Shown piece after piece: positions 872-64,000 of a stretch of 64,000 bases of DNA; positions within the stretch are counted from its first letter, which is position 1, and each line of letters begins with the position of its first letter. Below the pieces are notes generated by a model. The model was not told the origin of the DNA. It worked only from the letters and a program-made list of their open reading frames with translations, and made no database searches. The stretch spans positions 124,001 through 188,000 of the forward strand of contig NZ_JACSIT010000153.1 in the NCBI RefSeq assembly GCF_014349155.1. Direction: 5' to 3'. The position numbers were made by a program, and so were the translations under genes. This DNA is from Neolewinella lacunae (GTDB lineage Bacteria; Bacteroidota; Bacteroidia; Chitinophagales; Saprospiraceae).

Positions 872-889
872 GCACCTGCGGCCGCGCCC
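872..889 (+). repeat. R18 repeat, exact copy (intergenic)
   Basis: Exact GCACCTGCGGCCGCGCCC, preceded by a pyrimidine-rich stretch. It lies between the hydrolase and the 3' end of the exonuclease gene. First of 21 copies in the window. Confidence 0.85.
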
Positions 890-917
890 AAAACAGGGAA
901 AGCCCCTTGGAAAAGCC

Positions 918-1460
918 TCAGTAGTTCCAGAGATCGATCAGGCCGCAGAAGATTTTGGTGGTATTGATGGCGTCGGTGAGGGCACGGTGGGCCTGGCCTT
1001 CCCAGAGGTAACCTTCGTGGCGGACGGCGGATTGGAGGCCGCGTTTTTTGGGCAGCTTGCGGATGTCCTGGTACTGCTCCTTGAGGTCAATGTGGTAATC
1101 GAGCCAGTAATCGTCCAGGCGGTGCAGGCGGCAATCGGCAGCCAACTGCCGGCGATCAAAACGACCCCAACTGGCGAGCGTGTACTCCTCCTCGTCTACC
1201 CCTACCCAGTCCTGAAACTCGCGGATGACGCGGGAAAAGTCCTGGGCCCGGTTGATTTCGGGCTGCTCGATTTTGGTCAGTTGCCGGCAAAAAAGGCTAA
1301 GCTGCGGGTGGAGGACAGGCTTGATCAGGCGGTTGAAACGGCCGCCAACGCGACCGTACTGGTCGACGGCGCAGGCCCCGATTTCAATGGTTTCCTGTAC
1401 CATGCCAGGCGGCTTTCCCTCCCAGCACGTGGCCTCAATGTCAAGTATAATGAATTTCAC
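918..1460 (-). CDS. 3'-5' exonuclease, DEDDh (ERI-1/KapD-like)
   Basis: The N-terminus KFIILDIEATCW carries the Exo I DxE pair. A central SWGRFDRRQL block carries the Exo II aspartate, and HRALTDA near the C-terminus is the Exo III HxxxxxD of the DEDDh class. About 180 residues is normal for the short KapD/ERI-1-like family, which removes nucleotides from the 3' ends of RNA or DNA. A GTG at 1460 is chosen as start because homologues begin right at this beta-strand (MKxIILDxEATCW). An upstream TTG at 1487 would add nine residues. Convergent with the hydrolase gene. The RNA or DNA substrate is unknown. Confidence 0.8.
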   Translation of the reverse strand: MKFIILDIEATCWEGKPPGMVQETIEIGACAVDQYGRVGGRFNRLIKPVLHPQLSLFCRQLTKIEQPEINRAQDFSRVIREFQDWVGVDEEEYTLASWGRFDRRQLAADCRLHRLDDYWLDYHIDLKEQYQDIRKLPKKRGLQSAVRHEGYLWEGQAHRALTDAINTTKIFCGLIDLWNY

Positions 1461-1593
1461 CCTTGGGAAATGCCCCGGGCAGGGCAAAAGGTTCAGGCGC
1501 GGTAGAATTAAACCTATCCGGCCGTGCTTCTCCCGGGGGCTGGACCGCTAAACCGGGCAATTACCCAACCCCGGGAGCGCAACGCACCCGGTC

Positions 1594-3056: not shown

Positions 3057-6000
3057 ATGTTCCGCGCCGTTTCCACCCTTTTGCTCGTTGCTGTTTCGTT
3101 TTTTTGCCTGGCCCAGATGCCCGGCTCCGGTGCTACCGTCCGCTACGGCAACGAATGGATTACTTACGACCAAAATTACCTCCGCGTCCTGGTGGCTGAC
3201 GACGGCGTGTACCGCATTTCCGGCGCACAACTTGCCGAAGCGGGAATGTCTTTCAGCCCGGAAAATGCCGACCGCTGGCAACTCTGGAACGGTGGTGAAG
3301 CCGTACCCATTGAGGTAAACGCGGATGGCATCGTCTTCGTCGGCCGCAAAAACCGGGGGGAAATGGACCGTTTCCTGTTCACCGATCCAGCGACCATGCA
3401 GCTCAACGACCGCTACAGCATGTACTCCGATACGGCGGTTTATTACCTGGCGCTTTCGGAAGGACTGGGTGGCCCCTTTTACCAGGAGACGGCCGCCGAA
3501 AATGCGGTGCCCACCACCGAAATCACCCGGGAAACGGAACGGGTGTTCAGCGATTTCCAGAGCAAGGAATATTACCGGCAGAGCCGATCCAGCATTTACT
3601 ATTCCCACTACGACGTCGCCGAAGGCTTCGGCAGCCGGAGCAGCAACGATTTGCTCTCTTCCAACGGTTCGGTGGAAAGCAGTGCCCAGTTGACCTTGCC
3701 CGCCGCTAATGGGGGCCCGGCGCTACTCGACCTCCGTTTTGGGGTCGGTTTTTCGCGCCACGAGGTGGAAATCAGCGCCGACGGGGCCGTCTTGGACAAC
3801 GTCAGCGGTTTCGGCTTCGGCGTCTTCCAACGGCAGTTGGCCTTCACGCCAGCGGGTACCGCAACGAATTTGACCCTTACCGGGCGCAGTGGCCCGCAGG
3901 ACAAGCCCAACCTGGCCTGGTTGCGGGTGCGCTATCCCGCCACGCCGGCCTACGATGCGGCCCTCACGCATTTTCTTCTTCCCGCCGCAACCGTCCCGCG
4001 CAGGGTTGTTTTGGGCGCGGCCGCAGGTGCCGGAAAGGTCTATTCAGCAGTGGACGCCCGGGTCAGCACCGCCGATGCCCAGGGCACTTTCCTCGTCTTG
4101 CCCACCAGTGACGAGCGCCGTTACGACCTGGTGGTGGGCAACGCCTACCGCACGGCCGCCACTAGCCCCTACCGTTTCCAGACGGCCCTGCCCGCAGGCA
4201 GCCAGACCAATTACCTGATCCTCACCAGCCGACGGCTCAACGGTCCGGCCATCGCCGAACTGGCCGCCTACCGCGCCTCTTCCGCCGGCGGAGGCTACCG
4301 CGTTCACGTGGCCGAAGTAGAAGACCTGTACGAAGAATTTGGCTACGGCATTGGCCGCCACCCGATGGCCATCCGCAACTTTCTGGCCGCCGCCCGCCGC
4401 GATCACCCCGGCCTGCAGTACCTCTTCCTCATTGGCAAAGGCCGGGAATACGACAACCTGCGTACCCCGCAGCAACTCGCTACGGCCAGCCCCACCTTCT
4501 TCCTGCCGTCCTTCGGCTGGCCCGCTTCCGATAATCTCCTTTCGGCGGATTTGGGCGATGTGGTCCCAACCCTTTCCACCGGCCGCCTCGCTGCGGTCTC
4601 CGACGGAGAGATCGCCATCTACGTCAAAAAACTGCGCGAAGTGGAAGAGCAGATTAACCTCGGCGGCCAGACCCTCGAAGACCGGGAATGGATGAAGCAG
4701 ATCATGCACCTCGGCGGCGGCATCACGGCCTGGGAACAAGCCACCATCCGCGCCAACCTCTCCACCATCGGCAGTAAGATGGTGAATTCTTCCTTTGGCG
4801 GCAACGTAACCTCGTTTTTTAAGACCAGCAGCGAACCCATCGAAGACAGCCGCCAGGACGAAATTTTCTCCCGTATCAACCGCGGCCTGGCCCTGATCAC
4901 TTTTTACGGCCACTCCAGTAGCCAAGGCTTCGACTTCAGCATTGACGACCCCGAAAACTACGCCAACGCCGGCCGCTACCCCTACATGCTCAGTTTCGGT
5001 TGCTACAGCGGCGATGCCTTTACCGAAGCGCGCAGTATTTCCGAACGCTTCCTGTTTTTACGCGATAAAGGAGCCATTGCCTTTGCCGCTTCCAAGGGCG
5101 TGGGCTACATCAGTTCCCTGAGTACCTGGGGCCAGAACCTCTACACCCTGATGGGCACGGAATACTACGGCCAAGGCATTGGCGACGCCATGCGGGCCAA
5201 CATCGCCCACTTCAGGGATACCCGCGACGGTTCGATGGCGATCCTCACTGAGCAATTCACCCTCAGTGGAGACCCCGCCTACCGGATGCACCCCCGGCCC
5301 GGGCCCGACGTTTTGCCCGACGTAGCTTCCATCCGCTTCACTCCCGAAGTGGTGCCCGCCCAGGACGCGGCATTTTCCGTGAGCCTGCGCATCGTAAACA
5401 TCGGCACCCAAACCGGGGCCGACAGCATCAACCTGCGCTTCCGCCAGCAACTGCCCAGTGGCGAAGTGCGCCCCCTGAAGACGGTGCGCATGCTCCGCCC
5501 CGCATTTGCCGAAACCCTTACCGTGGCACTGCCCAACCTGGGCCTCGACGCCGTGGGGCAAAACCGCCTGCTGGTCACGGTCGACGCCGACAACGAACTG
5601 GCCGAACTGCCCAGCCCCGCCGCCGAAAGCAACAACGAACTGGTGGGCAACAGCCAGCCGGGCGTCCCCTTCACCATCATCGCCAATTCCGCCCGCGTTG
5701 CCTATCCCCCACCCTACGCCGTCATTGGCGGCCCCATTACCCTGGTGGCTTCCAGCACCAATGCCCTGGCCCCCGAGCGCGACTACGTCTTTGAGGTGGC
5801 TACGCGCCGCGACTTCGCCAATCCCCTGGTGTCCGAAAAAATCAACAGCCGCGGCGGTGTGCTGCGCTTCCAGCCCGGCTTTACCCCCGTGGATAGTACG
5901 ACTTACTACTGGCGGGTGAGCCCCGACTCCACCACTACCCAAGGCGCGGGGTTCATCTGGAGCGAAAGCTCCTTTACCTGGTTGGCCGGGCAGTTCCCCC

Positions 6001-10972: not shown

Positions 10973-10990
10973 GCACCTGCGGCAGCGCCC
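10973..10990 (+). repeat. R18 repeat, one mismatch (intergenic)
   Basis: GCACCTGCGGCAGCGCCC between the convergent GT10 and DoxX genes, with the usual upstream pyrimidine tract. Confidence 0.8.
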
Positions 10991-11531: not shown

Positions 11532-11549
11532 TTGCGCGGACGCAGGTGC
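11532..11549 (-). repeat. R18 repeat, three mismatches (intergenic)
   Basis: A degenerate copy between the DoxX and acyltransferase genes, recognised by the CGCAGGTGC half and its pyrimidine-rich flank. Otherwise the 168-bp gap holds nothing recognisable. Confidence 0.6.
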
Positions 11550-12860: not shown

Positions 12861-12865
12861 CGGCG

Positions 12866-16360: not shown

Positions 16361-16378
16361 GGGCGCTGGCGCAGGTGC
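16361..16378 (-). repeat. R18 repeat, two mismatches (upstream of gldC)
   Basis: GGGCGCTGGCGCAGGTGC, 52 bp before the gldC start and on the same strand sense as gldC, with a CTTTGCTCCTTATTCCCTT tract ahead of it. Confidence 0.75.
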
Positions 16379-18261: not shown

Positions 18262-18279
18262 GGGCGCGGCCGCAGGTGC
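18262..18279 (-). repeat. R18 repeat, exact copy (intergenic)
   Basis: 33 bp upstream of the DUF1801 start, same strand sense. Confidence 0.85.
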
Positions 18280-19779: not shown

Positions 19780-19797
19780 GGGCGCGGCCGCAGGTGC
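19780..19797 (-). repeat. R18 repeat, exact copy (intergenic)
   Basis: 29 bp upstream of the permease start, preceded (minus sense) by CTTCCCTTGCTCCT, the second conserved block of the extended repeat. Confidence 0.85.
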
Positions 19798-23984: not shown

Positions 23985-24002
23985 GCACCTGCGGCCGCGC
24001 CC
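23985..24002 (+). repeat. R18 repeat, exact copy (within the rhamnose operon)
   Basis: Lies in the 197-bp gap between rhaEW and rhaI, opposite in sense to the operon. The remainder of the gap has no gene. Confidence 0.85.
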
Positions 24003-26320: not shown

Positions 26321-26338
26321 GGGCGCGGCCGCAGGTGA
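26321..26338 (-). repeat. R18 repeat, one mismatch (rhaEW upstream region)
   Basis: GGGCGCGGCCGCAGGTGA, with a CTTCCCCCGCTCC block on the pyrimidine side. Confidence 0.8.
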
Positions 26339-37316: not shown

Positions 37317-37334
37317 GGGCGCGGCCGCAGGTGC
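37317..37334 (-). repeat. R18 repeat, exact, left arm of an inverted pair
   Basis: Pairs with the copy at 37404-37418 over 15 bases (GGGCGCGGCCGCAGG with CCTGCGGCCGCGCCC) around a ~70-base loop. Confidence 0.85.
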
Positions 37335-37403
37335 CAGCAACGGATTAAATAGCCAGGGAAGTCCGCCGCCAACTTCCCCCAGCTCCTCCAACTTGCCCGG
37401 CAT

Positions 37404-37418
37404 CCTGCGGCCGCGCCC
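37404..37418 (+). repeat. R18 repeat, 15-bp exact core, right arm of the inverted pair
   Basis: CCTGCGGCCGCGCCC preceded by GCAT instead of GCA, a one-base insertion relative to consensus. Confidence 0.8.
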
Positions 37419-40401: not shown

Positions 40402-40548
40402 GGGCGCAGGGGCAGGTGCCACCAAACGGGTGATCCGGCGGGACCAGGACTAGGGCAGGACTTCCCCCGCTCCTCCCCCTTCGGGGGTTGGGGGGCCAAC
40501 CTACTCCCCCCTTTGGGGGGTCGGGGGGGAGCACCTGCGGCCGCGCCC
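40402..40548. repeat. Inverted R18 pair flanking two GC hairpins
   Basis: A degenerate R18 (40402-40419, minus sense, three mismatches) and an exact one (40531-40548, plus sense) face outward. Between them are CCCCC-TTC-GGGGG and CCCCCC-TTT-GGGGGG hairpins. It occupies the gap between dabB and the DUF2490 gene. No U-run follows, so a terminator role for the dab operon is possible but unproven. Confidence 0.7.
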
Positions 40549-50265: not shown

Positions 50266-53200
50266 ATGCAAAAACTTTCCCCTTTCCTCCCCCTGCTCCT
50301 GATGGTGCTCCTCAGCACCTGCGTCAGCGCCCAACAGATCCCCCTCGTTTTTGAGGCCACGATCCGCAACCAGATTGGCATCACCCCGCAACCCGACGGC
50401 AGCCTGCTGATCAACACCCTCGGTGCCGACCCGTGGGTGCGGACCGTCCCCCTCACCCAATCCTACGACCACGAGCAGGTCTACGTGCTCAGTTTCGACT
50501 ACGAATCGGCCACCGGACTGGATAACCTGCAGGTCTTTTACGGCCTGCAGAGCGCCGCCCGCCGCGTGGATTTCGGGGAACTGCGGCCCACTACCAATGG
50601 CCCGCGCACCTTCAAGGCCTTCATGAAGCTGGAGGCCCCGATCTGGACCGAGGCCTACGACCGCTTTCGCTTCGATTTCGGTCGCTTCGCCGGGCAAAGT
50701 CTTACGCTGAGCAATCTACAGCTCCGCGCCGCCACCCCCACCGAAGTCATTCCCCTGACGCTCAACATCGACGAAAGATTGGGCACCAACGCCACCGTTG
50801 CCGCCGACGGCAGCGTGACCCTTACGACCAACAGCATCGATCCCTGGATCGCCACTTTTCCCTTTACCACCGCCTACGACCCGAGCCAAACTTACGTCCT
50901 GAGCTACCGCTACCAGGGGGATGCCCTGGATGATTTCCGCGTCTTTTTCGGCGAGCCTTACGATCCGGCACGCATGGCCCTGTTCGGTCCGCTGCCCAGT
51001 GCTGCTGCCTACACTGCTTTCAGCGGTTTTATGCCCGCCGGGGACCCCAACTGGCTCGATGGACCAGTGAATAAACTCCGCTTTGACTTCGGCCGCGAAG
51101 CCGGCAAAACCATCACCGTCAGCGATTTCTACCTGCGCGAACCCACCAACGCAGAAGCCAATGCCTACCAGCCACCGGTAGTAGTGGAAACGGTGGATCT
51201 GGAACTCGACGTCAACAACACCAGCGCAGGACTCAGCGGCACGGAAACCGCCCCGGGCGAGTACCTGCTCAACACTACCGGCAACGACCCCTGGATCCGC
51301 AGCAAAACGGTTACGGCCCTTTACAATATTGACTCCAGCTACATCATCTCCTTCGAATACCGTGCCCCCGAAGCCTACAATACCCTGGAAATTTTCTTTG
51401 GTCCACCCATCAACGCCACCCAACTCCTGACCACGGAGCAACTGCCTGCGGCGGCGGAGTGGACGACCTACGTGCTCAATCCCCGGCTGTACGTGGACAA
51501 TTTCCAGACCGCCGACTGGACGGATTTCCGCTTCGACTTCGGCCGGCAGGAAAACACCACTAAGCAGATCGAGATCCGCAACCTGAAACTGCGCAAGCCT
51601 ACGCCCCAGGAGCGGCTGGACGAAGAAAACAGCGACAAATTCCGCAGCCGCATCGTCAACCAGCAGTTCAATGCTTACCTGGCCAGCACCTTTCCCGACC
51701 GCGTGACGGAGGTGAAGGTGGATTCAACCCAGGTTACCATCCGCGGCGAACTCAGCGGCGGTACCGGCCCCTATTTCCTGGCCGAGATTAACCCCGAAGA
51801 CTATGGCTTCGACCTGGAAACCTTCGATCACCTCATCCCCCTGGCGGAAACCAGCGGCAGCTTCAGCGTGCAGCAGCCCCGCTTTGCCCCCCTGGCCGAC
51901 CGGCAAAAGGACCGCCTCTACGCCCGCTGGGCAGTGGTGACGCCAAACGCTGCGGGCACCTACACCAGGACCTCCGCCCTGCACTGGGCCACCCACATCG
52001 CCTACGCCGCCGAAAACAACCTGCCGGAAGACAAAGCGACCACCATCAAGGGGCTCGATGGCCTCACCCCCGGCACCCTCGGCAACTTCAACGACTTGCT
52101 GGATCTGGACATCAAGAGCATGAAAATAAACCTCGTGCTCAACGGTGTATTTGCCCTCAACCCGGGTGCCAACACCACGACTTACGACTTCAACGGCAAG
52201 ACCTACCACATCAACCAGACCTTTGTGGACAATCTGGATGCACGAATCAAAATTTGTAGCGACAACGGCATTAAGCCCGCCTTTGTCCTGCTGATCCCCA
52301 TCAGCTTCACGAATGCTTTTCTGGACAGCATCTTCACTCACCCCGACGCCCGCCTGGGGCTCTACAGCATGGCCAATGTTACCGACGCCCGCGGGGTGGA
52401 GCATTATACCATGCTGGTGGATTTCCTCAGCCGCCGCTATTCCCGTCCGGATCAATTGTACGGCCGCCTCGACCAGTGGATCATCCACAACGAGGTCGAT
52501 GCCCACACTTCCTGGACCCACGCCGGCGAAAAACCCGCTCCGCTCTACACCCAGATCTACGACCGTTCGATGCGACTCGTACACTACACCATCCGCAAGC
52601 ACAACCCCACGGCGAAGGTCTTCAGCTCCCTCACCAAGCACTTTGCCAGCAAGGTGGGGGGCGAAGCCGGGCCCAACTTCCGCTCGCGGGAAATCCTCAC
52701 CGTCCAGGGCAAACTCATGCAGCTGGAGGGCGACTACGAGTGGGGCATCGGCTGGCACTCCTACCCCACCAACCTGCGCAACCCCGCCGTGTGGCAAGAC
52801 GCCATCAGCGCCACGCCCCTGAGTTACGACGCCGCCCAGATCACCCCACGCAACCTCGAAGTGATCGATGGCTACGTGCGTCAGAAAAGTGTGCTGTACA
52901 ACGGCCGGAAAGTCCGCACCATCCTGTTGAGCGAGAACGGCTTCAGCTCCAACGTCAGTACCAACCCCACCTTCACGCAGGAGCGGCAGGCCGCCGCCGT
53001 GGCCTACTTCTGGAAAAAGACGAACGAGCGCCTGAGCGCCATCGAAAACATCCAGTACCACCGCTGGGTCGATAACCCCAACGAAGGCGGCCTGGAATTT
53101 GGCCTTTGGACGGTTTTGCCCGGCACGATCGAGGGCTTCAATGAGAAAAAACCGAGCTGGTACGTCTGGCAGGCGGCTGGCACGCCGGAGGAAGACGCCG

Positions 53201-54975
53201 TTTTTGCGCCCTACAAGGCGGTCATCGGCATCAGCGACTGGTCGGAAATCCAGTTTGCCTTCGCTACCGAAACCACACCCTACCGCGTGCTGCTCAACGT
53301 CGTCAACTGCGACGCCGATCTGACGGATGTGCTGGTTTCCTTCAACGGTGAGCACCGCATTCCGCAGGCCGATGGTACGGTGCAGTTTTTCAACGTTGCC
53401 TCCAACGTGGCCCAGCCGCTGGCCATCTCCAAAGGCGGCGTGCTGCTGGTGCAGGATACGCTGGCGGTGGATGCCGACCTGGAATTGGCTTACGACCTCG
53501 GTGCGGTGGCCGGCCTGAGTGCGGTGGGCAGTAGTCCGACCACCGTTACACTGAGCTGGACGGGCGCGGCCGCAGGTGCAGGGTACGTCGTGGAACGCAG
53601 TGTGGAGGGCGGGGCCTACAGCGAAATTGCGCGGGTGGATACGACCGTTTGGGTAGACAGCAACGTCGTGGCGGCCAACGACTACGCCTACCGCGTAGCT
53701 GCCGAGCTGGCCGGTGGATCGGCCCTTTCCTGCTTCTCCGACCCCGTGGCCATCACGGCCCCCTACATTGTCGTCGATTACCGCAATGCCGATCTCAACC
53801 AGCCGGGCAACAACAAAATTGCGCCCCAGCTGCGCCTGCGCAACGTCTCGGACCTGCCCGTAGCCATCAGTGAACTCACGGTACGCTACTGGTTTACGGC
53901 CGAGAACCTGGCGACGCTGAACTTCTTCGTCGATTACGCCGCCCTGGGCACTTCCGCCGTAGCGGGCACCTTTACCGCCCTGCCGGAAGCCCGCGACGGG
54001 GCCAGCCACTACCTGGAACTCGGCTTCAACACCGCCTACCAGATCCCCGCCAACGGCAACACCGGCGACATCAAGACGCGGATCGCCAAGGCGAACTACA
54101 GCAACTTCGCTGAGGCCGACGACCACAGCTACGCCAACGTGGGCAGTTACGTGGAAAGCAGCAGCATCACCGTTTACCGCAACGGCGTCCTGATTTGGGG
54201 TGCGGAGCCTGCCGTTAGTGCCGTCCAGGCCCCTGCCCTCCGCGTCGTTCACCGGACGACCGACAATGCCAACAACAACAGCATCAAGCCGGAGCTCAAC
54301 CTCGTCAACGACGGCAACGTGGGGGTGGACCTGGCGGACGTTACGCTCCGCTACTGGTTTACGCCCGAGGGCAGCGCGGCGCTGCAATACGCCCTGGATT
54401 ACAGTCTGCTGAATGCTTCCTTGATCGGTGGGCAGTTCGTTGCGGCGGGCGATCGGCCGGGTGGCAGCCACTACTTCGAGGTGGGCTTCGACCCGGCTTT
54501 GGGCCAACTCGCCGCCCGGAGCGAAACCGGGCCGATGAAGTTCCGCTTCTTCAAGCAGGATTGGCCCAACTTCAGCGAAGCCGACGACCACTCCTACCTG
54601 GCTACGGGTGCCTGGCTGGACAATGCCTGGATCACGGCCTACCTCGGCGACGAACTGGTGTGGGGCGAAGAACCGGACCTGGCTCCTTTGCCGCGCCCGG
54701 CTCCTTCCACCGCGACTACGGCACCTGCGTTCAGCGCCCAGGTGTTCCCCAATCCGGCCCGGGAGTATACTGATCTGGTTTGGGGTGGCGACGTGGAACG
54801 GTTCGAGAATGTACACCTGGTTGGGGTCAATGGAACGCGCCACGCAGTGACTGCTGAAATTGCTGGTCAGCGCCTGCGCCTGCGCTTCGGGGCCGGGCTG
54901 CCCGCCGGACTTTATCTGGTGGGAGGCACAGTGAACGGTGAGCCAGTCGTCAGCCGGGTGGTAATTCGGCGCTAA
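50266..54975 (+). CDS. Giant secreted DUF5722 glycosidase-like protein with CBM3s and T9SS domain
   Basis: 1569 residues. R18-type signal peptide (LLLMVLLSTCVSAQ). Then three tandem ~140-residue beta modules (~20-165, 165-305, 306-450), each with a DPW(I/V) motif and ending F(R/K)FDFGR..., likely carbohydrate-binding. Residues ~465-985 match DUF5722: a GH-A-like barrel with WIIHNEVDAHTSW (Glu ~742) and TILLSENGFSS (Glu ~889) as candidate acid/base and nucleophile. A fibronectin III domain (~1085-1165) contains an in-frame R18. Two CBM3 modules follow (~1166-1320, ~1325-1475; VRYWFT, YSNFAEADDHSYA and PNFSEADDHSYL), then a T9SS sorting domain. Probably a cell-surface enzyme that binds crystalline or cell-wall polysaccharide. 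The catalytic assignment is inferred. Confidence 0.82.
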   Translation: MQKLSPFLPLLLMVLLSTCVSAQQIPLVFEATIRNQIGITPQPDGSLLINTLGADPWVRTVPLTQSYDHEQVYVLSFDYESATGLDNLQVFYGLQSAARRVDFGELRPTTNGPRTFKAFMKLEAPIWTEAYDRFRFDFGRFAGQSLTLSNLQLRAATPTEVIPLTLNIDERLGTNATVAADGSVTLTTNSIDPWIATFPFTTAYDPSQTYVLSYRYQGDALDDFRVFFGEPYDPARMALFGPLPSAAAYTAFSGFMPAGDPNWLDGPVNKLRFDFGREAGKTITVSDFYLREPTNAEANAYQPPVVVETVDLELDVNNTSAGLSGTETAPGEYLLNTTGNDPWIRSKTVTALYNIDSSYIISFEYRAPEAYNTLEIFFGPPINATQLLTTEQLPAAAEWTTYVLNPRLYVDNFQTADWTDFRFDFGRQENTTKQIEIRNLKLRKPTPQERLDEENSDKFRSRIVNQQFNAYLASTFPDRVTEVKVDSTQVTIRGELSGGTGPYFLAEINPEDYGFDLETFDHLIPLAETSGSFSVQQPRFAPLADRQKDRLYARWAVVTPNAAGTYTRTSALHWATHIAYAAENNLPEDKATTIKGLDGLTPGTLGNFNDLLDLDIKSMKINLVLNGVFALNPGANTTTYDFNGKTYHINQTFVDNLDARIKICSDNGIKPAFVLLIPISFTNAFLDSIFTHPDARLGLYSMANVTDARGVEHYTMLVDFLSRRYSRPDQLYGRLDQWIIHNEVDAHTSWTHAGEKPAPLYTQIYDRSMRLVHYTIRKHNPTAKVFSSLTKHFASKVGGEAGPNFRSREILTVQGKLMQLEGDYEWGIGWHSYPTNLRNPAVWQDAISATPLSYDAAQITPRNLEVIDGYVRQKSVLYNGRKVRTILLSENGFSSNVSTNPTFTQERQAAAVAYFWKKTNERLSAIENIQYHRWVDNPNEGGLEFGLWTVLPGTIEGFNEKKPSWYVWQAAGTPEEDAVFAPYKAVIGISDWSEIQFAFATETTPYRVLLNVVNCDADLTDVLVSFNGEHRIPQADGTVQFFNVASNVAQPLAISKGGVLLVQDTLAVDADLELAYDLGAVAGLSAVGSSPTTVTLSWTGAAAGAGYVVERSVEGGAYSEIARVDTTVWVDSNVVAANDYAYRVAAELAGGSALSCFSDPVAITAPYIVVDYRNADLNQPGNNKIAPQLRLRNVSDLPVAISELTVRYWFTAENLATLNFFVDYAALGTSAVAGTFTALPEARDGASHYLELGFNTAYQIPANGNTGDIKTRIAKANYSNFAEADDHSYANVGSYVESSSITVYRNGVLIWGAEPAVSAVQAPALRVVHRTTDNANNNSIKPELNLVNDGNVGVDLADVTLRYWFTPEGSAALQYALDYSLLNASLIGGQFVAAGDRPGGSHYFEVGFDPALGQLAARSETGPMKFRFFKQDWPNFSEADDHSYLATGAWLDNAWITAYLGDELVWGEEPDLAPLPRPAPSTATTAPAFSAQVFPNPAREYTDLVWGGDVERFENVHLVGVNGTRHAVTAEIAGQRLRLRFGAGLPAGLYLVGGTVNGEPVVSRVVIRR
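50315..50332 (+). repeat. R18 repeat, two mismatches, in a signal peptide
   Basis: Encodes STCVSAQ at the cleavage site of the DUF5722 protein. Confidence 0.8.
53562..53579 (-). repeat. R18 repeat, exact, inside a fibronectin III domain
   Basis: Reads GAAAGA between strands SWT and YVVERS, lengthening a loop where FN3 domains normally have one or two residues. Confidence 0.85.
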
Positions 54976-55310: not shown

Positions 55311-56669
55311 TTAATTTCTCCAAATCCATTGGGATAAAACTATCTCATCACCGCGCGTAATTTGAAGTCCATACATACCTGTTGCTATTCCCCTCAGATC
55401 TAGTGCACTGTGTAAACCACTAAAGGCCTTGATTAAAACGCCATTCAAATCGTACAATCTAATTGCGTCATACTGCAAGCCAGGATCGTGGTCAACGTAC
55501 AAAGTTCCTGCGTTTGGATTGGGATAAATTTTTATTTCAGCATCCACCAGAATGCTACTTGTTGTTGCAACAGTTGGCAACATAAATTTGTAGAGAAAAG
55601 GCCTTGCTCTTCCTCCAACGTCAGTTACATTCCCTTGCCCACCAATCAGTACGCAGTTATTCTGACCTGAAACCGCCAGGACGGTATTCGCATAATTTCC
55701 CTCGTCAAACATCGCACTACGATCAGACCACAATGTTTCCCCTTCCGGCGAGAGAGATACGGCATAAGAATCCATGTCAAAGCCCCGACCGATCGAGCCA
55801 GCCAAAATAATTTGACCGTCAATAAAATCACCCCCAAAAAAATATATCTTATTATCAAAACCCGAAGGATAAAACACCCGTGACCATATTATTTCTCCAG
55901 TATAGCCTATTGAATACACTATTCCTTCTGATCCGTTAAAATCCCCCGTACGCCCCGCCAGGAATAAATTATCTGGGCCAAAAAAAACATCCGCTATCCT
56001 CTCTGGTATATTTAAAATCGTATCCAACATTATTTCTTCTTCAGGCCCGTAGACTACAATTCTTCCCGTACCCGGGGAATCCAAATACTCGATCCGCTGG
56101 TTTTGATCGTTAATATTCATTGAGACCGGGGCATCTGAAGAAATTTCAAGCTCGTAAGTGGCCAAAAGCGTGGAAACATCAAACTTCCCTCGTAAAAGGT
56201 AGTCTACGCCACCAATCTCAACTTCGCCAAATAGCTGAATTACATTATCTTTAAACAGCGCGTCAGCAATATACCCAAATCGGCTGTTTACTGAAGTATC
56301 GCCGGTTATATTTGTTACGAATCGGGAATTCAAGCCATCCGCATCCGTCAGATAGACTTGCCCATTTTTAGTCAAATGGACTAAATCCCCAGAAGGATTC
56401 TCCACACTAATTACCACCCATCCATCATTGCAATTACAGATATCTCTACCCCAAAGCAGTTCCCCATTCGGGTTCAGTCGATAAACCCGACTATTGCCGG
56501 TAGTGGCAATTAACAAATCAGCATTCTGAGTTTCGAACACCTTGGAGGTTTGGCCTGCGACGTCTCCTGCAAACTCCCACCCCAGCTGGCCTGACAATTC
56601 AGCTCCATTGCAGAGCACAAGAAACACACTAATAGCCATTAAGGCAGTCTGCTTTAAATTTATTTTCAT
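55311..56669 (-). CDS. T9SS-sorted beta-propeller-like secreted protein (AT-rich)
   Basis: 452 residues. Signal peptide (MKINLKQTALMAISVFLVL..., ending LSGQ). The body has repeating blades with YRLNPNGELLWGRD, VYSIGYTGEIIWSR, YAVSLSPEGETLWSD, as in WD/PQQ-like secreted propellers. The end (IKIYPNPNAGTLYVDH, RLYDLNGVLIKAFSG, ATGMYGLQI) is a T9SS sorting domain. Base composition is visibly more AT-rich than the flanking PUL genes, and a MITE abuts its 3' end, so recent acquisition is plausible. Function unknown. Overlaps the next gene by 4 bp. Confidence 0.8.
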   Translation of the reverse strand: MKINLKQTALMAISVFLVLCNGAELSGQLGWEFAGDVAGQTSKVFETQNADLLIATTGNSRVYRLNPNGELLWGRDICNCNDGWVVISVENPSGDLVHLTKNGQVYLTDADGLNSRFVTNITGDTSVNSRFGYIADALFKDNVIQLFGEVEIGGVDYLLRGKFDVSTLLATYELEISSDAPVSMNINDQNQRIEYLDSPGTGRIVVYGPEEEIMLDTILNIPERIADVFFGPDNLFLAGRTGDFNGSEGIVYSIGYTGEIIWSRVFYPSGFDNKIYFFGGDFIDGQIILAGSIGRGFDMDSYAVSLSPEGETLWSDRSAMFDEGNYANTVLAVSGQNNCVLIGGQGNVTDVGGRARPFLYKFMLPTVATTSSILVDAEIKIYPNPNAGTLYVDHDPGLQYDAIRLYDLNGVLIKAFSGLHSALDLRGIATGMYGLQITRGDEIVLSQWIWRN

Positions 56670-57325: not shown

Positions 57326-59122
57326 ATGCCAAAACTGTTTTTTCTCTGCTCCCTGTTCCTGCTCTGCACCTGCGTCAGCGCCCAGCATGAAATACTGCGA
57401 AGCAAAAAGGAGGTGGGGAATGCCCAACTCCCCCCCGTCTTCAGCTCCGCCGAAAACGCCGCAGCCCACCGTTCGCCTACTGTGAAAAGCTACCTGACGC
57501 CCAACCGCATCGTGTGGCAATCGGACAGCACCGGGCAGTTCATCCAAAACCCCGAACTGCTGCTGCAAAAGAGCAACGGACAGGTGGCGGTGAACGACCC
57601 CAACCGCCTGCGCCTGATCAGTACCGCCGATCACCGGCCGGGCGTGTTGCTTGATTTTGGCCGCGAAATCCACGGCGGCATCAAGATTGCCATGGGCATC
57701 AAACCCAGCAAAGATCCCGTCCGGCTACGCATCCGCTTCGGCGAATCGGCCATGGAGGCGATGTCGGAGATCGGTGGCCAACAAAACGCCACCAACGAAC
57801 ACTCGCTGCGCGATTTTCAGATTGAGGTGCCCTGGCTGGGCAGCATCGAAGTGGGCGAAACCGGCTTCCGCTTCGTGCGCATTGACCTGGTGGATGCCGA
57901 CGTGAATATGCCCCTGTACGCCGTGCAAGCCGCTTTCATCTACCGCGACCTGCCTTACCTGGGCTCCTTCGAAAGCAACGACGCGCGCCTTAACGCCATC
58001 TGGCTGACCGGTGCCTACACCGTCCACCTCAACATGCAGGACTACCTCTGGGACGGCATCAAGCGCGACCGCCTCGTTTGGGTAGGCGACCTCCACCCGG
58101 AAATCATGACCGTGGCCTCCGTTTTCGGCAACAACGAAGTGGTGCCCCGCAGCCTCGATCTGGCCCGCGACCAGCACCCCCTGCCGCAGTGGATGAACAC
58201 CATCAGCAGCTACTCGATGTGGTGGCTCATCATCCATAAACAGTGGTACGACAACTATGGCGACCTGGACTACCTGCGCGAGCAAGAACCCTACCTGATT
58301 GCCCTGCTGGCCCAGCTGGCCACCTTCATCGACGAAGACAACGCCGAAAAACTGAACGGTGGCCGCTTTCTGGACTGGCCCACCAGCCCGGACAAAGCCG
58401 CCGTGCACGCCGGTTTGCAGTCGATGATGGTCCTCACCTTCGAGGCGGGTAGCGCGCTGCTGACTACCCTGGAAAAACCGGAACTGGCCAAAAATTACGC
58501 CGCCGTCGCCGCCCGGCTGCGCAAGCACCTGCCCGAGGGGAACACCAGCAAACAGGCCGCCGCCATGATGGTCCTGGCCGGCCTGGCCGACGCCAAGGCC
58601 ACCAACGAAGAAATCCTGAAAAAAGACGGCGTCCAGCGCATGTCCACCTTCTACGGCTACTACATCCTCGAAGCGATGGCCCAGGCCGACGACTACACCG
58701 GAGCCCTCGACGTGATCCGCAATTACTGGGGAGCGATGCTCGACCTCGGGGCCACCACCTTCTGGGAAGATTTCGACATCAACGACAGCCGCAACGCCAC
58801 GCCCATTGACGCGCTTGTGCCGCTGGGCAAGGACGACATCCACGGAGATTTCGGGGAGTTCTGCTACGTCGGCTACCGCCACAGTTTTTGCCACGGCTGG
58901 GCCAGCGGACCCACCGCCTGGCTGAGCCAACACGTGCTGGGCATCACCCTGGTGGAAGGGGGCGACGCGGTGAAGATCAATCCCCACCTCGGTGATCTGG
59001 AATTTGCGCGGGGCACCTTCCCCACCAAATTCGGCGTCCTCAAAATCAGTCACGAGCGCAATGCCCTGGGCCAGATAAAAACCTCCCTGGAAATTCCCGA
59101 AGGCCTGCGGGTCATCCGCTAA
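57326..59122 (+). CDS. GH78-like alpha-L-rhamnosidase
   Basis: 598 residues from the ATG at 57326. R18-type signal peptide (FFLCSLFLLCTCVSAQ). A beta domain with LLDFGREIHGGIKI and RIRFGESAMEAM (typical GH78 N-terminal module) is followed by the (alpha/alpha)6 barrel with QDYLWDGIKRDRLVWVGDLHPE (~239-260), the variant catalytic block of a GH78 branch, and YRHSFCHGWASGPTAWLSQHVLG. Shorter than the GH78 enzyme at 47327 and lacking its extra N-terminal domains. First gene of a five-gene operon with RhaM and two sulfatases, which supports rhamnose release. Confidence 0.85.
   Translation: MPKLFFLCSLFLLCTCVSAQHEILRSKKEVGNAQLPPVFSSAENAAAHRSPTVKSYLTPNRIVWQSDSTGQFIQNPELLLQKSNGQVAVNDPNRLRLISTADHRPGVLLDFGREIHGGIKIAMGIKPSKDPVRLRIRFGESAMEAMSEIGGQQNATNEHSLRDFQIEVPWLGSIEVGETGFRFVRIDLVDADVNMPLYAVQAAFIYRDLPYLGSFESNDARLNAIWLTGAYTVHLNMQDYLWDGIKRDRLVWVGDLHPEIMTVASVFGNNEVVPRSLDLARDQHPLPQWMNTISSYSMWWLIIHKQWYDNYGDLDYLREQEPYLIALLAQLATFIDEDNAEKLNGGRFLDWPTSPDKAAVHAGLQSMMVLTFEAGSALLTTLEKPELAKNYAAVAARLRKHLPEGNTSKQAAAMMVLAGLADAKATNEEILKKDGVQRMSTFYGYYILEAMAQADDYTGALDVIRNYWGAMLDLGATTFWEDFDINDSRNATPIDALVPLGKDDIHGDFGEFCYVGYRHSFCHGWASGPTAWLSQHVLGITLVEGGDAVKINPHLGDLEFARGTFPTKFGVLKISHERNALGQIKTSLEIPEGLRVIR
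57366..57383 (+). repeat. R18 repeat, two mismatches, in a signal peptide
   Basis: Encodes CTCVSAQ, then continues with the same CAGCATGAAATACTGCGAAG-type sequence as the other GH78 gene. Confidence 0.8.
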
Positions 59123-59143
59123 TCAACCCGCAAATTTCGTCCG

Positions 59144-60964
59144 ATGATGCTCCCATTTTTGCGCTTTCTACTCTGTCTTTGGCCCGGTCTGCTCCTGGCC
59201 CAGCTCAGTTCACCGCCGCAGGTATCGCCGCAACGGGCCGATACCTGGGCGGCAACCGATGCGCTCGGGCGCAGCCTGCCCGACAACGCCGCAACGGGAG
59301 ACCTGAACGAAAACAAACACGTCGGCATTTTCTATTTCCTCTGGCTCGGCGCCCACGGGCACGACGCGCATACCAAGCCTTTGCCCGACGAGGGAGTGAT
59401 GGTCCCTACCGACACCGCCTACCGCAGCCCCTACGACATCAGCCGGCTGCTGGCCGAAAACCCGGCCAACCCGGCTTACGGTCCGGACAAAGCCTTCCAC
59501 CACTGGGCGGAATCCGTGTTTGGCTACTACCTTTCGGACGACGACTGGGTAATCGTCAAGCACGCCCAACTGCTCTCCGATGCGGGCGTCGACGTGATTG
59601 TCTTCGACGTCACCAACTCCCTAGTTTACCTACCCCAGGCCCTGCGGGTGTGTACTTTGTTTGCGCGCCTCCAGCAAATGGGCTGGGCGGTGCCCCGGGT
59701 GGCTTTCCTGACCAACTCCCAGCACGTAAAGACAACCGAGCGGATTTACGCCGAATTTTACGCGCCGGGGCTCTACCCCGATCTCTGGTTCCGCTGGAAG
59801 GGAAAACCCCTGCTGATGGGCAACCCCGAAGGCCTTTCGCCCGAAATCCAGGAATTTTTTAATTTTCGCCGCTCCTGGGCCTGGACGAAGGGGCAGGAGT
59901 GGTTTGGGGATGGCAAGGACAAGTGGCCCTGGATCGACCACTACCCCCAGCAGTACGGCTGGCACGACAGCCCCGGCGTACCAGAGCAGATTGTGGTGGC
60001 CTCCGCGCAGCACCCCGTTTCCAACATCGGGCGGAGTTTTCACGCGGGGCGACAGCCGGCGCCGGACAGCATCGACCCGGGGCGGGGTCTCTTTTTCGCC
60101 GAGCAGTGGCGGCGGGCCTGGGAGGTCGACCCCGAATTCGTCTTCATCACTGGCTGGAACGAGTGGGTGGCGATGCGCTTCACCGACGGGCGGGCCAAGC
60201 AAATTATGGGCAAACCCGTGCAGCCGGGCGATACCTACTTCGTCGATCAGTACAACGAAGAATTCAGTCGCGACATCGAACCCATGCGCGGTGGATTTAC
60301 CGACAACTACTACTACCAGATGGTGGATGGCATCCGCCGCTACAAGGGCACGCGGCCACCGCAGCAGCGCCCCGGCCAAACGGCGGCAATGACCATTGAC
60401 GGTAGCTTTACGGAGTGGGAAAGCGTAACGGGCGTGTACTACGACCACCTGGCCGATACGCGCCACCGCGCGCATCCCGGCTGGGGACGCACGGGCGTGT
60501 ACCGCGATAGTTCCGGGCGCTACGACCTGGTGGAAGCCCGCGCCGCCGAAGGGGCTGACCATTTTTTCTTCTATCTGCGCAGTCACAACGACTTTGCGGC
60601 GGGGCAGGTGCCGGAGGGGCTGGAGCTCCTGCTGGTGGCGGGGGCGGCGGAAATGCCGGCGTCCCTCGGTTACCACTACCGCGTGGTGCGGGGCGCGGCC
60701 GCAGGTGCCATGGAAGTCCAAAGGAGCAGAGGCGGTTGGGAGTGGACATCCATCGGGCAGGCGGCCGTGGCTCTGCGGGGCAATCAGCTGGAACTGAGTC
60801 TCCCGAAAGCCCTGCTGGGCGACTATCCCCCGGTGCTGGAATTCAAGTGGATCGATAACGTCTACCCCGCCGGCGATGCCCTGCGCTTTTACACCCACGG
60901 AGATGCGGCACCGAACGCCCGCTTCAACTACCGCTTCCAGACCGCAAAAACCGACGACCGATGA
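59144..60964 (+). CDS. Secreted GH71/99-like glycosidase with C-terminal carbohydrate-binding-like domain
   Basis: 606 residues. Signal peptide MMLPFLRFLLCLWPGLLLAQ. The barrel shows GIFYFLWLGAHGHD, LSDAGVDVIVFDVTNS and VFITGWNEWVAMRF, which resembles GH71/GH99-type and WbsX-like proteins where the Glu in WNEW is functional. Residues ~420-600 form a beta-sandwich (MTIDGSFTEWESV, FFFYLRSHNDFAAG, LEFKWIDNV) like CBM9/DOMON domains and contain an in-frame R18. The stop overlaps the rhaM start (ATGA). Family assignment is tentative; a role in the same rhamnose-rich glycan is inferred from the operon. Confidence 0.7.
   Translation: MMLPFLRFLLCLWPGLLLAQLSSPPQVSPQRADTWAATDALGRSLPDNAATGDLNENKHVGIFYFLWLGAHGHDAHTKPLPDEGVMVPTDTAYRSPYDISRLLAENPANPAYGPDKAFHHWAESVFGYYLSDDDWVIVKHAQLLSDAGVDVIVFDVTNSLVYLPQALRVCTLFARLQQMGWAVPRVAFLTNSQHVKTTERIYAEFYAPGLYPDLWFRWKGKPLLMGNPEGLSPEIQEFFNFRRSWAWTKGQEWFGDGKDKWPWIDHYPQQYGWHDSPGVPEQIVVASAQHPVSNIGRSFHAGRQPAPDSIDPGRGLFFAEQWRRAWEVDPEFVFITGWNEWVAMRFTDGRAKQIMGKPVQPGDTYFVDQYNEEFSRDIEPMRGGFTDNYYYQMVDGIRRYKGTRPPQQRPGQTAAMTIDGSFTEWESVTGVYYDHLADTRHRAHPGWGRTGVYRDSSGRYDLVEARAAEGADHFFFYLRSHNDFAAGQVPEGLELLLVAGAAEMPASLGYHYRVVRGAAAGAMEVQRSRGGWEWTSIGQAAVALRGNQLELSLPKALLGDYPPVLEFKWIDNVYPAGDALRFYTHGDAAPNARFNYRFQTAKTDDR
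60691..60708 (-). repeat. R18 repeat, exact, inside the GH71/99-like gene
   Basis: Reads GAAAGA in a loop between two strands of the C-terminal sandwich domain. Confidence 0.85.
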
Positions 60965-61275: not shown

Positions 61276-62789
61276 TCCGACTTCCTTATGCGCGCCGCAC
61301 CCGAGCGGTTACGCTGGCTACCACCATATTGGCGGGCTTTCTGCTGTTGGCCTTTGCCTTTTCGCGTTGCGCCACCCCGGCCACTTCCCGTGCGCAGGCG
61401 GCACCATTGAACATAGTCTTGATCCTGGCCGACGATCAGGGGGCCCACCTCTCTGCCCTCGGGACGCCGGGGATTGCTACGCCAAATGTGGATGCCTTGG
61501 CCGACCGGGGGATCCTTTTCACCCAGGCATTTGCCGTGGTACCTTCCTGTTCCCCCAGCCGCAGCTCGATCAATACAGGAATGTACCCCCACGCCAACGG
61601 ACACTGGCGCAATACCATTACTCCCCTGCTGGGTGACCCCGCCAGCCAGTTTGGCCGCGCCTCGACCCGGGTCGACCAAGTGGGCATTCACGAGTACATC
61701 CGCACCCTGCCCGAAGTGCTGGCCGAACGGGGCTACTTTACGGCCATTACCCAGAAGTTCCACATGTCGCCGCCCTGGAAATTCCCCTACTCCGTGCGGA
61801 ACCCGGTGCACAACGACCCTGCGGAATACGAGCGGGTCATTGGGGAATTCATCGAGCAGGCGGGGGAGCGACCGTTTTTCTTTCAAGCCAACGTGAGCCC
61901 GCCGCACCGGCCGTTTAAGAACGACATTGCCGGCCGTCCGGAGTTGTTGCCCGACACCAGCGCGTTGATGGTACCGGGATACCTGCCGGCTGTGCCGCTG
62001 GTGCAGCTCGATCTACAGGAATACTTCGCCGCCGTGCAGTTGGCGGATGCCTGCGCCGGAGGCATCATTGCGGCCCTGCGCGCCAAGGGAAAGCTGGAAA
62101 ACACCTTGATCATCTACACGTCCGACCAGGGAGCGCCGTACCACCGGGCCAAGGCTTCGGCTTACGCGGCGGGCTTGCACGTACCCTTTGTGGTGGCTGG
62201 ACCGGGGGTGGTGCACGGTCAGCGTTCGGATGCCCTCATTTCCCTGATTGATCTGATGCCAACGGTGCTGGATTATTTCGGGATTCCCGTGCCGGAAACG
62301 GTGCAGGGACGGTCGCTGCGCAGCCTCTTTGCTGGCGAAGCGAAAAAGGTAGCGGGGCGGGATTACCTCTTTGGCGAGCACAACTCCCACGGGCCGCCGC
62401 GCTCGGAGCACTACCCGACCCGGATGGTCTACGACGGGCGCTACTACTACCTGAAAAATTTGTTGCCCGGCAAAAGCTATCTCCTGCCCGCCGACCTGAG
62501 CGAAGAAAAAGGCTGGGGCAACCGTGCCTACCGGGGCACCGTGGAGGCGGCGGCAACCCATCCGCGGGCTTATGCCTTCCTGCGGGAGCTGGAATCGGGC
62601 CGGCCGGCCGAGGAACTTTATGATATGGCCAACGACCCGGAGCAACTGCACAACGTTGCCCAGTTGCCGGCCTACCGCCAGGAAAAAGCCCGGTTAGCGG
62701 CAGCCCTGGAGGCGTGGCGAAAATCCTCCGGTGATGCCTTTGACGACCCGGCGCAGATCCCCACCCGGCAGGAAGCTCCTTTGCGCTAA
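61272..62789 (+). CDS. Sulfatase (S1 family)
   Basis: 505 residues. An N-terminal hydrophobic segment (TLATTILAGFLLLAFAFSRC) acts as signal or lipoprotein leader (Cys33, non-canonical). NIVLILADDQGAHLS carries metal-binding Asp pairs; PSCSPSRSSINTGMYP is the C-x-P-x-R site (Cys93). FHMSPPWKFPYS and YTSDQGAPYHRAK are further active-site blocks. Ends with a typical EELYDMANDPEQLHNVA. Resembles heparan N-sulfatase-like (S1_8-type) enzymes, though the subfamily is not certain. Coupled to rhaM and followed after 17 bp by another sulfatase. Confidence 0.9.
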   Translation: MIRLPYARRTRAVTLATTILAGFLLLAFAFSRCATPATSRAQAAPLNIVLILADDQGAHLSALGTPGIATPNVDALADRGILFTQAFAVVPSCSPSRSSINTGMYPHANGHWRNTITPLLGDPASQFGRASTRVDQVGIHEYIRTLPEVLAERGYFTAITQKFHMSPPWKFPYSVRNPVHNDPAEYERVIGEFIEQAGERPFFFQANVSPPHRPFKNDIAGRPELLPDTSALMVPGYLPAVPLVQLDLQEYFAAVQLADACAGGIIAALRAKGKLENTLIIYTSDQGAPYHRAKASAYAAGLHVPFVVAGPGVVHGQRSDALISLIDLMPTVLDYFGIPVPETVQGRSLRSLFAGEAKKVAGRDYLFGEHNSHGPPRSEHYPTRMVYDGRYYYLKNLLPGKSYLLPADLSEEKGWGNRAYRGTVEAAATHPRAYAFLRELESGRPAEELYDMANDPEQLHNVAQLPAYRQEKARLAAALEAWRKSSGDAFDDPAQIPTRQEAPLR

Positions 62790-62806
62790 AACACAATCCT
62801 TGTGAA

Positions 62807-64000
62807 ATGATGAAAACGAACATGCGGTACTGCCGTGGCGGAATCCTTGCCTTGCTTTGCAGCTTGCTTTGCACCTGCGGCCGCGCCCCCGAAAACGAAA
62901 AGCGGCCAGCGGAAGTGGGTGCTGACCCGAGACCGAACGTAATTTTGATCATTGACGACCAGCACCGCTACGACGCGCTCGGCAAGGTGAACCCCCAGGT
63001 TTTGACGCCCACGCTCGACAGTTTGGCCGCCAGCGGGATTCACTTTACTCAGGCCGTGTGCCAGGCCCCGATGTGTGTGCCGAGCCGCAACTCCGTGATG
63101 TTCGGCCTCTACCCCAGCCAGACGGGCGTATTTCGGAACAGCGATGGGGTGCCCGATACTGCACTGCCGGGCAAAACCATGGCCCAGTACTTTAGCGATG
63201 CTGGCTACGAGACGGCGGGCTTTGGCAAGACCCACTGGGGCAAGCACCGCACGGGAACGCGCGGCTTCGAAACCCGCTATTCCTCAGAGATTCCGGAAGA
63301 CGGCGGCATTACCATGGCGATGGCAGACAGCGCCGCCAAGGCCCGCTACGACGCCGAGATTGGCCCCATGGGCCCCGGCGAAGAAAACAACATTGGCTAC
63401 CTGGGTTTCACCAGTGCGCTGCCAGAAGAAGACCACCGCGACGGCTGGATCAACCAGCAGGCCCTGCGCTACCTGCGCGAGCGCGAAGACGACCGACCGC
63501 TGTTCTTCTACCTTTCTTACATGAAGCCCCACGCTGGCCACAACCCTCCGGCTGGCTACGAAGACCTGTACCACACCGACAGCATCCGCTACGCCGTGCA
63601 ACCGCCCTGGGACCTGGACTATTCCCCCCACGCCAGCGGGGTCAACCGCCGGGAACTCTACGAAGGCTTCTGGAAAACGGCCACCCCGGAACAGTGGCGG
63701 CTGATGACGATGCGCTACTACGCTAACGTTACCTGGATCGACGATATGCTGGGCCGGGTGCTGTCTGAAATGAAACGAGGGGGCTTACTGGACAACGCCA
63801 TAGTGGTGTATACCTCCGACCACGGAGAAATGCTGGGGGAGCGCTACTATCGCTTTAATAAATACTGCCTCTACGACGCCAGCGTGCGGGTGCCGCTCAT
63901 CGTGACCGGAAGCGCAGTGGCAAATGGCGTAGGGACGGAAGATGCACGGCCGGTGGATTTGGTGGACGTGCTCCCTACCCTACTCCAAGCCGCTGGCATT
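62807..64000 (+). CDS. Sulfatase (S1 family), truncated by the window end
   Basis: 398 codons are visible and the frame is still open at base 64000. Start ATGATG at 62807. The signal peptide GGILALLCSLLCTCGRAP contains an exact R18 repeat. NVILIIDDQHRYDALG holds metal ligands; QAPMCVPSRNSVMFGLYP is the C-x-P-x-R site (Cys90); GFGKTHWGKH and YTSDHGEMLGERYYRFNKY follow in order. Probably acts with the preceding sulfatase to strip different sulfate positions of one glycan. Confidence 0.9.
   Translation, partial: MMKTNMRYCRGGILALLCSLLCTCGRAPENEKRPAEVGADPRPNVILIIDDQHRYDALGKVNPQVLTPTLDSLAASGIHFTQAVCQAPMCVPSRNSVMFGLYPSQTGVFRNSDGVPDTALPGKTMAQYFSDAGYETAGFGKTHWGKHRTGTRGFETRYSSEIPEDGGITMAMADSAAKARYDAEIGPMGPGEENNIGYLGFTSALPEEDHRDGWINQQALRYLREREDDRPLFFYLSYMKPHAGHNPPAGYEDLYHTDSIRYAVQPPWDLDYSPHASGVNRRELYEGFWKTATPEQWRLMTMRYYANVTWIDDMLGRVLSEMKRGGLLDNAIVVYTSDHGEMLGERYYRFNKYCLYDASVRVPLIVTGSAVANGVGTEDARPVDLVDVLPTLLQAAGI
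62871..62888 (+). repeat. R18 repeat, exact, in a sulfatase signal peptide
   Basis: The only exact copy that is itself signal-peptide coding: reads CTCGRAP. Confidence 0.85.

Follow-up and report, generated by a model that had tools for sequence, protein, structure and literature searches.

What is the 18-bp repeat, hereafter R18, that recurs throughout a 64,000-nucleotide stretch of the Neolewinella lacunae genome (contig NZ_JACSIT010000153.1, positions 124,001 to 188,000; the window, meaning the whole stretch analysed)? We consider it likely that R18, a dispersed DNA motif in two parts, functions in the manner of the uptake signal sequences (USS) of the Pasteurellaceae and the DNA uptake sequences (DUS) of the Neisseriaceae; uptake itself we infer from the way the motif evolves. 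In the genes examined, alignments show that copies were formed, and are kept in place, at the DNA level by base substitution. Copies are mostly found in permissive sites, are evenly spread and vary in dialect between species. An earlier note on this DNA had listed a DNA-uptake-like sequence among three possible roles, and the pattern of evolution supports that suggestion well.

Within the window, 21 matches to R18 with at most three mismatches are found, against 0.35 expected from shuffled sequence (the highest single value in 100 shuffles was 4). The earlier note had placed ten exact and eleven variant copies, and had argued that ten exact 18-mers could not be due to chance. All of these positions are recovered (its copy at 37404 being a shortened core inside a match that begins at 37401) and the shuffles bear out the argument. 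In the window's own genome (G000; 5.8 Mb in 154 contigs) the exact 18-mer is present 596 times, against 0 for the reversed pattern used as control, and the number rises to 990 when two central positions are left free. In a set of 198 genomes, a slightly degenerate R18 occurs in 20 of the 21 members of the genus and in none of the 177 other genomes, with 0 (G001) to 990 (G000) copies per genus member. Counting over the complete genome and in relatives, suggested earlier as a check, finds the repeat neither at the level expected from composition nor confined to the window. Neolewinella belongs to the class Saprospiria, in line with the group that the earlier note had named for such a comparison. 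In a scan of named genomes, the matches listed (80 of at least 89 stretches) belong to Neolewinella agarilytica, N. persica, N. aurantiaca, Lewinella-type and other Bacteroidia metagenome-assembled genomes, together with single copies in unrelated taxa (10 of the 80 stretches listed).

The anatomy of the motif was derived from 863 kb of G000 holding 234 R18 sites, or 266 when a slightly shorter core is used. The core reads GCACCTGCG-NNN-GCGCC(C), in which NNN stands for three looser bases, and is preceded by a pyrimidine-rich arm that carries a TTGCTC box about 21 bp away. In 62 of the 266 sites a TGCT[CT] box starts 18-22 bp upstream, most of all at 20-21 bp, where the distribution peaks sharply; in a further 24 it starts 42-43 bp upstream. 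The second block that the earlier note had seen some 15-30 bp upstream is therefore present, though its distance is more tightly defined than was thought. A G/C hairpin stands between box and core in 22 of the 24 sites of the longer distance and in none of the 62 of the shorter one. Both distances correspond to whole helical turns (two turns in the case of 20-21 bp), though one insert length may be a simple cause of the 42-43 bp distance. On a looser count (GCTC[CT], 12-45 bp upstream), a box accompanies 82 intergenic sites out of 151 and 30 genic sites out of 75; in intergenic background windows the figure is 6%. G005 (14 per 46 sites), G019 (11 per 35) and G017 (5 per 19) share the 20-21 bp peak, which in G001, G006, G008, G011 and G013 comprises 0 to 2 sites only. 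To the right of intergenic copies the flank is rich in A (0.40-0.49 over the first four positions) and not in T, and a role as terminator was rejected on this ground. A G/C-rich hairpin (CTCCCCCCTTCGGGGGGTCGGGGGGGA-like) lies directly 5' of the core at about 40504-40530 of the window and at 45 of the 266 sites; a TGCT[CT] box that accompanies it is mostly 42-43 bp away and not 20-21 bp. The fetched loci of G000 also contain a 12-mer, CATAGTTCATAG, in 35 copies against 0.01 expected in the 863 kb.

Copies avoid coding sequence. Called genes contain 76 of the 234 sites, with 151 between genes and 7 at gene edges, so that the genic share (76 of 227 classified sites) is far below the coding fraction of 0.815; genes were called here with a home-made hexamer scorer, which cuts starts short and missed 55311-56669. 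Successive copies are spaced more evenly than random placement would give: the coefficient of variation is 0.65, compared to 0.88 (standard deviation, sd, 0.056) for uniform placement and 0.93 (sd 0.069) for a null that keeps the split between genic and intergenic sites, and none of 500 replicates was as low under either null.

The spelling of the motif differs within the genus. Enrichment of k-mers and alignment indicate that genomes poor in R18 mostly carry a motif of the same layout in another spelling: GCACCCGCGaCCGCGC in G019, GCACC(T/C)GCGGCAGCGCC in G013, a version with CCCCGCC in G011, G017 and (less clearly) G008, ACCTGCGCTCCGcCGCC in G001 and GCACCCGCGCtCCGGCGCC in G006. The signal is weak in G004 (near GCTCCCGCG), G012 and G015, and likewise in G008. 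These consensus sequences rest on 93-157 kb sampled per genome, and on less for G002, G014, G016, G020 and G010. Dialects also shift the length of the central spacer by about 2 bp. The pattern of the second dialect, shared by G001 and G006, has 422 copies in G001 and 329 in G006, compared to 0-54 in the other 19 members of the genus; outside the genus it yields 3 copies in 2 of 99 genomes, and its reversed control yields 1 copy overall. G001 is thus devoid of R18 but holds 422 copies of its own version. By DprA, G010 diverges furthest within the genus (47% identity); it holds one R18-type copy and no copy of the second dialect, and the 70 kb sampled from it showed no k-mer enrichment of such a motif.

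These dialects bear on the main rival explanation, by which R18 would be bound throughout the genome by a protein that organises the chromosome or regulates genes globally, each site being under direct selection. The nucleoid-protein site suggested in the earlier note falls under this explanation. Such a protein could account for the long bipartite motif with boxes two helical turns apart, the conservation at the DNA level, the two thirds of copies that are intergenic and the even spacing. It has difficulty with a spelling that varies genome-wide within one genus: a regulator with hundreds of sites would hardly change all of them, as in G001, which has 0 copies of a spelling present 990 times in G000, whereas such change is natural under uptake drive. 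Moreover, the orientation of copies is unrelated to GC skew or gene direction over 84 windows. We regard this explanation as unlikely, yet as one to be kept in mind.

How individual copies arise can be followed in three genes aligned across the genus (HisD, DprA and 3-hydroxybutyryl-CoA dehydrogenase), which were picked for the presence of R18 in G000. The first and third were identified by curated models; DprA scored 190.1 bits, just below its curated cut-off of 191.15. In HisD, seven high-copy genomes (G000 included) spell the site GGC GC(G/A) GAC GCA GGT GC(A/C) amid surrounding codons that vary, and the remaining genomes except G010, in which the residues differ, keep the residues ADAGA, with a looser spelling in the low-copy ones. 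At the DprA site G000 has RARPQV and eight relatives have (R/Q)AR(T/P)QE; in G015 the motif stands at the same place in another frame (GADAGA), consistent with an independent gain. The dehydrogenase site encodes APA(A/S)AP, with the motif or a dialect spelling, in nine genomes (G000 among them) and APADAI in G015. All three alignments are free of gaps at the R18 site. "High-copy relatives" here are nine genomes grouped by protein identity and copy number, without a tree. Where residues are conserved, the codon identity of these relatives to G000 at the motif is 0.93 in HisD, 0.89 in DprA and 0.83 in the dehydrogenase (6, 6 and 3 codons scored), compared to gene means of 0.52, 0.48 and 0.47. 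Windows that score at least as high, the motif's own included, number 4 of 353, 1 of 246 and 5 of 303, respectively. For low-copy relatives the values at the motif are 0.73 against a gene mean of 0.54 (HisD) and 0.42 against 0.41 (DprA, 2 codons). Given that the copies in these genes are gapless and show this excess of codon identity, selection or drive acts on the DNA itself, through substitution. A wider check covered the 18 of 76 in-gene sites that had orthologues in the fetched DNA (hits below 45% identity excluded): out of 63 pairs, 4 were gapped and 45 had the motif as loosely defined (at most two mismatches to the dialect pattern), with HisD and DprA contributing 36 of the pairs and the dehydrogenase 10.

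Between genes the origin of copies is less clear. The exact copy at 23985..24002 (+) lies in the gap 23855-24051, between the genes 22574-23854 and 24052-26160. In the same gap 7 of 17 other genomes have a core match with at most three mismatches, five of them as an inverted pair; of the ten without one, six have a gap of only 8-37 bp and four of 96-266 bp. These inverted pairs with variable interiors first suggested transposition, and the copies could accordingly be mobile palindromic repeats inserted by a transposase, either repetitive extragenic palindromes (REP) or bacterial interspersed mosaic elements (BIME), or else miniature inverted-repeat transposable elements (MITE), with inverted pairs as whole elements and single copies as decayed halves. 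Close inverted pairs do occur (18 of 67 neighbours in -+ arrangement are at most 150 bp apart, against 4 of 68 in +- arrangement), and genes for REP-associated tyrosine transposases (RAYT) occur in 20 of the 21 genomes of the genus. Transposition was nonetheless dropped on the codon alignments, in which copies within genes replace codons without insertions or deletions. Most copies lack a good inverted partner, and copies are not confined to intergenic DNA. The number of RAYT genes does not follow that of R18 copies either (four RAYT matches and 0 copies in G001, none and 436 copies in G018), and the nearest R18 is more than 2 kb away from both RAYT genes of G000. The REP/BIME-like role proposed in the earlier note is for these reasons not supported, and its proposed check for an adjoining RAYT transposase found neither a link in copy number nor, in G000, proximity. 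We now rate a mobile origin as very improbable.

Still more doubtful is a recombination or replication signal such as Chi or the FtsK-orienting polar sequences (KOPS). R18 resembles these in being abundant, a feature of the DNA level and found both in and between genes. Chi-type sites are shorter than R18, and the strands of G000 are used equally (288 forward, 308 reverse copies), with no correlation between orientation and GC skew (rho -0.02 over the 84 windows, a weak test on draft contigs); a strand bias, which the earlier note had suggested looking for, is not apparent.

The reading frames of copies within genes point to permissive sites. Counts per frame are 22, 17, 16, 15, 4 and 2 (chi-square p 1.7e-4), so that four of the six frames are favoured: the frequent ones encode GAAAGA, APAAAP, CTC(V/G)(S/R)AQ and ARPQV, and LHLRPRP and GRGRRC result from the two rare ones. 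Close to called gene starts (within 90 bp), each of the 12 same-strand copies uses the CTC..AQ frame, which forms the end of a signal peptide (as judged by eye, without a predictor). A primary role as a module coding for signal peptides, passed by gene conversion from one secreted-protein gene to another, would explain these 12 copies, but they are a small share of the 234 sites, of which 151 are intergenic and the other in-gene ones mostly in other frames, and we give this idea the least credit of all. Rather than a signal-peptide element as such, we take these copies to be permissive sites at which the motif happens to encode a good signal-peptidase end.

A number of observations weigh against an uptake role for R18. 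The binding-site explanation accounts for most sequence facts other than the genome-wide change of spelling between species, and the three aligned genes were not chosen independently of the motif. With about 31 bits in the core and about 8 more upstream (in G000), R18 is long and rich in information compared to known uptake signals. Uptake does not predict an orientation bias, yet intergenic copies are directed to the nearer gene in 112 cases and not in 38. The very strong outward orientation that this seemed to imply was rejected, in that placement alone (the 48-bp unit set wholly within the same gap) yields 0.611 (sd 0.039) against the observed 0.747, which leaves a modest excess. Depletion in foreign DNA is weak: 10-kb windows hold 1.5 sites on average in the 8 low-GC ones and 2.84 in the 76 others, a difference confounded by GC since counts climb with it (rho 0.32). 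The idea that mobile DNA accounts for long stretches without R18 was set aside on mixed results, the longest gap (20 kb) being low in GC and containing a Schlafen-type helicase gene and the second being a cytochrome oxidase region. R18 is furthermore present on two virus-labelled contigs, with 7 exact-pattern copies on IMGVR_UViG_3300009467_000002 and 3 on 3300012037_000001 in the pieces returned (7 of 83 stretches inspected, from the two contigs richest in copies), and with additional copies on both once one mismatch is allowed. Host DNA, prophages of long residence or phages to which uptake is of benefit could account for these. The pieces concerned (L288, L302, L313, L316, L317, L346 and L351, from contigs of 44.6 and 38.7 kb) show several copies with a TGCT or CGCT box, and on the first contig R18 is found near a collagen-like tail fibre gene.

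The transformation machinery also gives mixed evidence. ComEC has a profile match in all 21 genomes of the genus, and DprA and the ComEA-like domain HHH_3 (several stretches per frame) in 20 each, the exception in both cases being G009, which is 55% complete. On the other side, ComEC matches in 10 and HHH_3 in 11 of 14 control genomes, so that neither is specific to competent bacteria; the two indicate capacity and not competence. With PF00437, the only pilus model used (pilins and secretin were not searched for), the genus yielded no convincing type IV pilus ATPase. This model matches in 20 of 21 genomes and passes its cut-off in 11, but the best match (24.9 bits) covers only positions 139-222 of 370 in open reading frames of roughly 950 aa, and is so taken for a nucleotide-binding stretch and not for a pilus ATPase. 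DUF5689, the one specific Riemerella uptake domain tested, is present in a single genome of 21 (G010, L407-L409), which is almost free of both spellings. Finally, a search of the open-licence literature turned up no work on natural transformation in Lewinella.

Taken as an uptake signal, R18 could have spread as follows. A surface DNA receptor of the natural-transformation machinery would prefer DNA with the local dialect; better-matching fragments would be taken up and recombined more often, and the motif would accumulate by molecular drive. As the genus gave no convincing match to a type IV pilus ATPase, we would expect the receptor to be an outer-membrane or surface protein, as proposed for the pilus-free transformation of Riemerella, and not a pilin of the ComP/ComN type. 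We lean, by no wide measure, towards the more specific proposal that Neolewinella has independently evolved a sequence-specific uptake system without a type IV pilus, in which a surface receptor reads the two-box motif in helical phase and has drifted into dialects, with the result that DNA exchange is channelled within groups of one dialect. If true, uptake sequences would have originated a third time, and this case would be, as far as we found, the first in Bacteroidota; among the open-licence papers listed (15 of 2,319 in one search), none describes such a motif in Bacteroidota, Lewinella or Neolewinella. A third case, in another phylum and apparently pilus-free, would present self-specific uptake as a convergent outcome of biased receptors and drive. 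The co-variation of dialect and protein over the 21 genomes would offer a direct handle on the outer-membrane step of transformation in Bacteroidota, a correlation with protein families having been used for the USS receptor (PMC12616744), and the bipartite motif predicts the geometry of the receptor.

The copies in the window illustrate most of these settings. Besides the copy at 23985, exact intergenic copies lie at 872..889 (+, TTGCTC box 20 bp upstream), 18262..18279 (-, TTGCTC box 21 bp upstream) and 19780..19797 (-, between 18333-19751 and 19864-21012, TTGCTC box 21 bp upstream). Intergenic variants are found at 10973..10990 (+, 1 mismatch), 11532..11549 (-, 3 mismatches with a GCGCAA ending), 16361..16378 (-, 2 mismatches, TTGCTC box 22 bp upstream) and 26321..26338 (-, 1 mismatch, GCTCC box 21 bp upstream). 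Two inverted pairs are present: 37317..37334 (-, exact) forms the left arm to 37401..37418 (+, 3 mismatches), and 40402..40419 (-, 3 mismatches) the left arm to 40531..40548 (+, exact), which has a G/C hairpin immediately upstream. Exact copies that read GAAAGA in antisense stand at 4013..4030 (-) within the gene 3057-8030(+), at 53562..53579 (-) within 50266-54975(+) and at 60691..60708 (-, CTGCTC box 21 bp upstream) within 59159-60964(+). Signal-peptide-like ends are encoded at 39363..39380 (-, 2 mismatches, CTCVSAQ, TTGCTC box 22 bp upstream), 50026..50043 (-, 1 mismatch, GTCVRAQ in a rhamnosidase gene, TTGCTC box 22 bp upstream), 50315..50332 (+, 2 mismatches, STCVSAQ, CTGCTC box 22 bp upstream), 57366..57383 (+, 2 mismatches, CTCVSAQ, CTGCTC box 20 bp upstream) and 62871..62888 (+, exact, CTCGRAP in a frame opening at 62810, TTGCTT box 19 bp upstream), and a signal-peptide-like start of the sulfatase gene 30587-32182 at 32041..32058 (-, 1 mismatch, CTCDRAP, TTGCTC box 22 bp upstream). 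The gene caller alone gives 13 intergenic and 8 genic copies; when the copy at 62871, close to the start of its frame, is counted as genic, the division into 12 and 9 reported earlier stands.

Other features of the window were recorded alongside. A common stretch (AGCATGAAATACTGCGAAGCAAA-like) follows the core on its 3' side at 50000-50025 and 57384-57410, after coding and non-coding copies. A separate dispersed repeat family (CTGGATCGACCCAGAGGGTCTCAACCTA and neighbours), with tandem sub-copies, occupies 13040-13253 and 30320-30461; L033, L040 and L106 each contain a single copy of a 22-base part of it. At 639-748 a 37-bp unit (TGGGAGTATCCCCGGATTACGGATGCG...) stands in three tandem copies. A search of the window against Rfam returned nothing matching at the R18 repeat, its sole match being the Bacteroidales small signal recognition particle RNA (RF04183) at 12772-12868.

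Among known systems, REP/BIME with their RAYT and MITEs such as the Correia elements are the mobile repeats with which R18 can be compared. Like R18, they run to hundreds of copies, some of them paired in inverted orientation around an interior that varies; R18 differs in its origin by substitution within genes, its mostly single copies and the lack of a link to RAYT. Nearer in phylogeny is Riemerella anatipestifer, also of the Bacteroidota, for which passages of PMC8459023 describe pilus-free natural transformation with ComEC, DprA, a multi-HHH protein and no pilus homologues, and implicate an outer-membrane protein and a DUF5689 protein. The term "uptake sequence" is absent from the main text of that paper, and the DUF5689 family is found in just one of the 21 Neolewinella-genus genomes. 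The Pasteurellaceae and Neisseriaceae are, in the account given in parts of PMC7811141 (2020), the two families that prefer DNA with short motifs, both with pilus-based uptake. Passages of PMC7811141, PMC3630211 and PMC2346458 describe uptake sequences as arising by point mutation, being rare in coding sequence under constraint, spreading evenly, forming dialects, occupying permissive sites and including inverted pairs. It is because abundance, point-mutation origin, coding rarity, even spread and dialects belong to the published traits that we read R18 as uptake-like. R18 differs from the USS of Haemophilus and other Pasteurellaceae in its unrelated sequence, its GC-rich core, its helper box two turns upstream, its occurrence in Bacteroidota and the lack of a convincing type IV pilus ATPase. 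Nonetheless, both are spread genome-wide and relatively evenly, evolve by point mutation and have an extended motif (about 31 bp for USS, as stated in parts of PMC7811141), and both show biases of orientation and position within genes (passages of PMC2346458). The DUS of the Neisseriaceae, 12 bp long according to a passage of PMC2346458 and, by a partial account, read by the pilin ComP, is not bipartite as R18 is, and the dialects of R18 alter the central spacer by about 2 bp. As described in parts of PMC3630211, however, DUS resembles R18 in its dialects among related species, its permissive positions and its intergenic inverted pairs.

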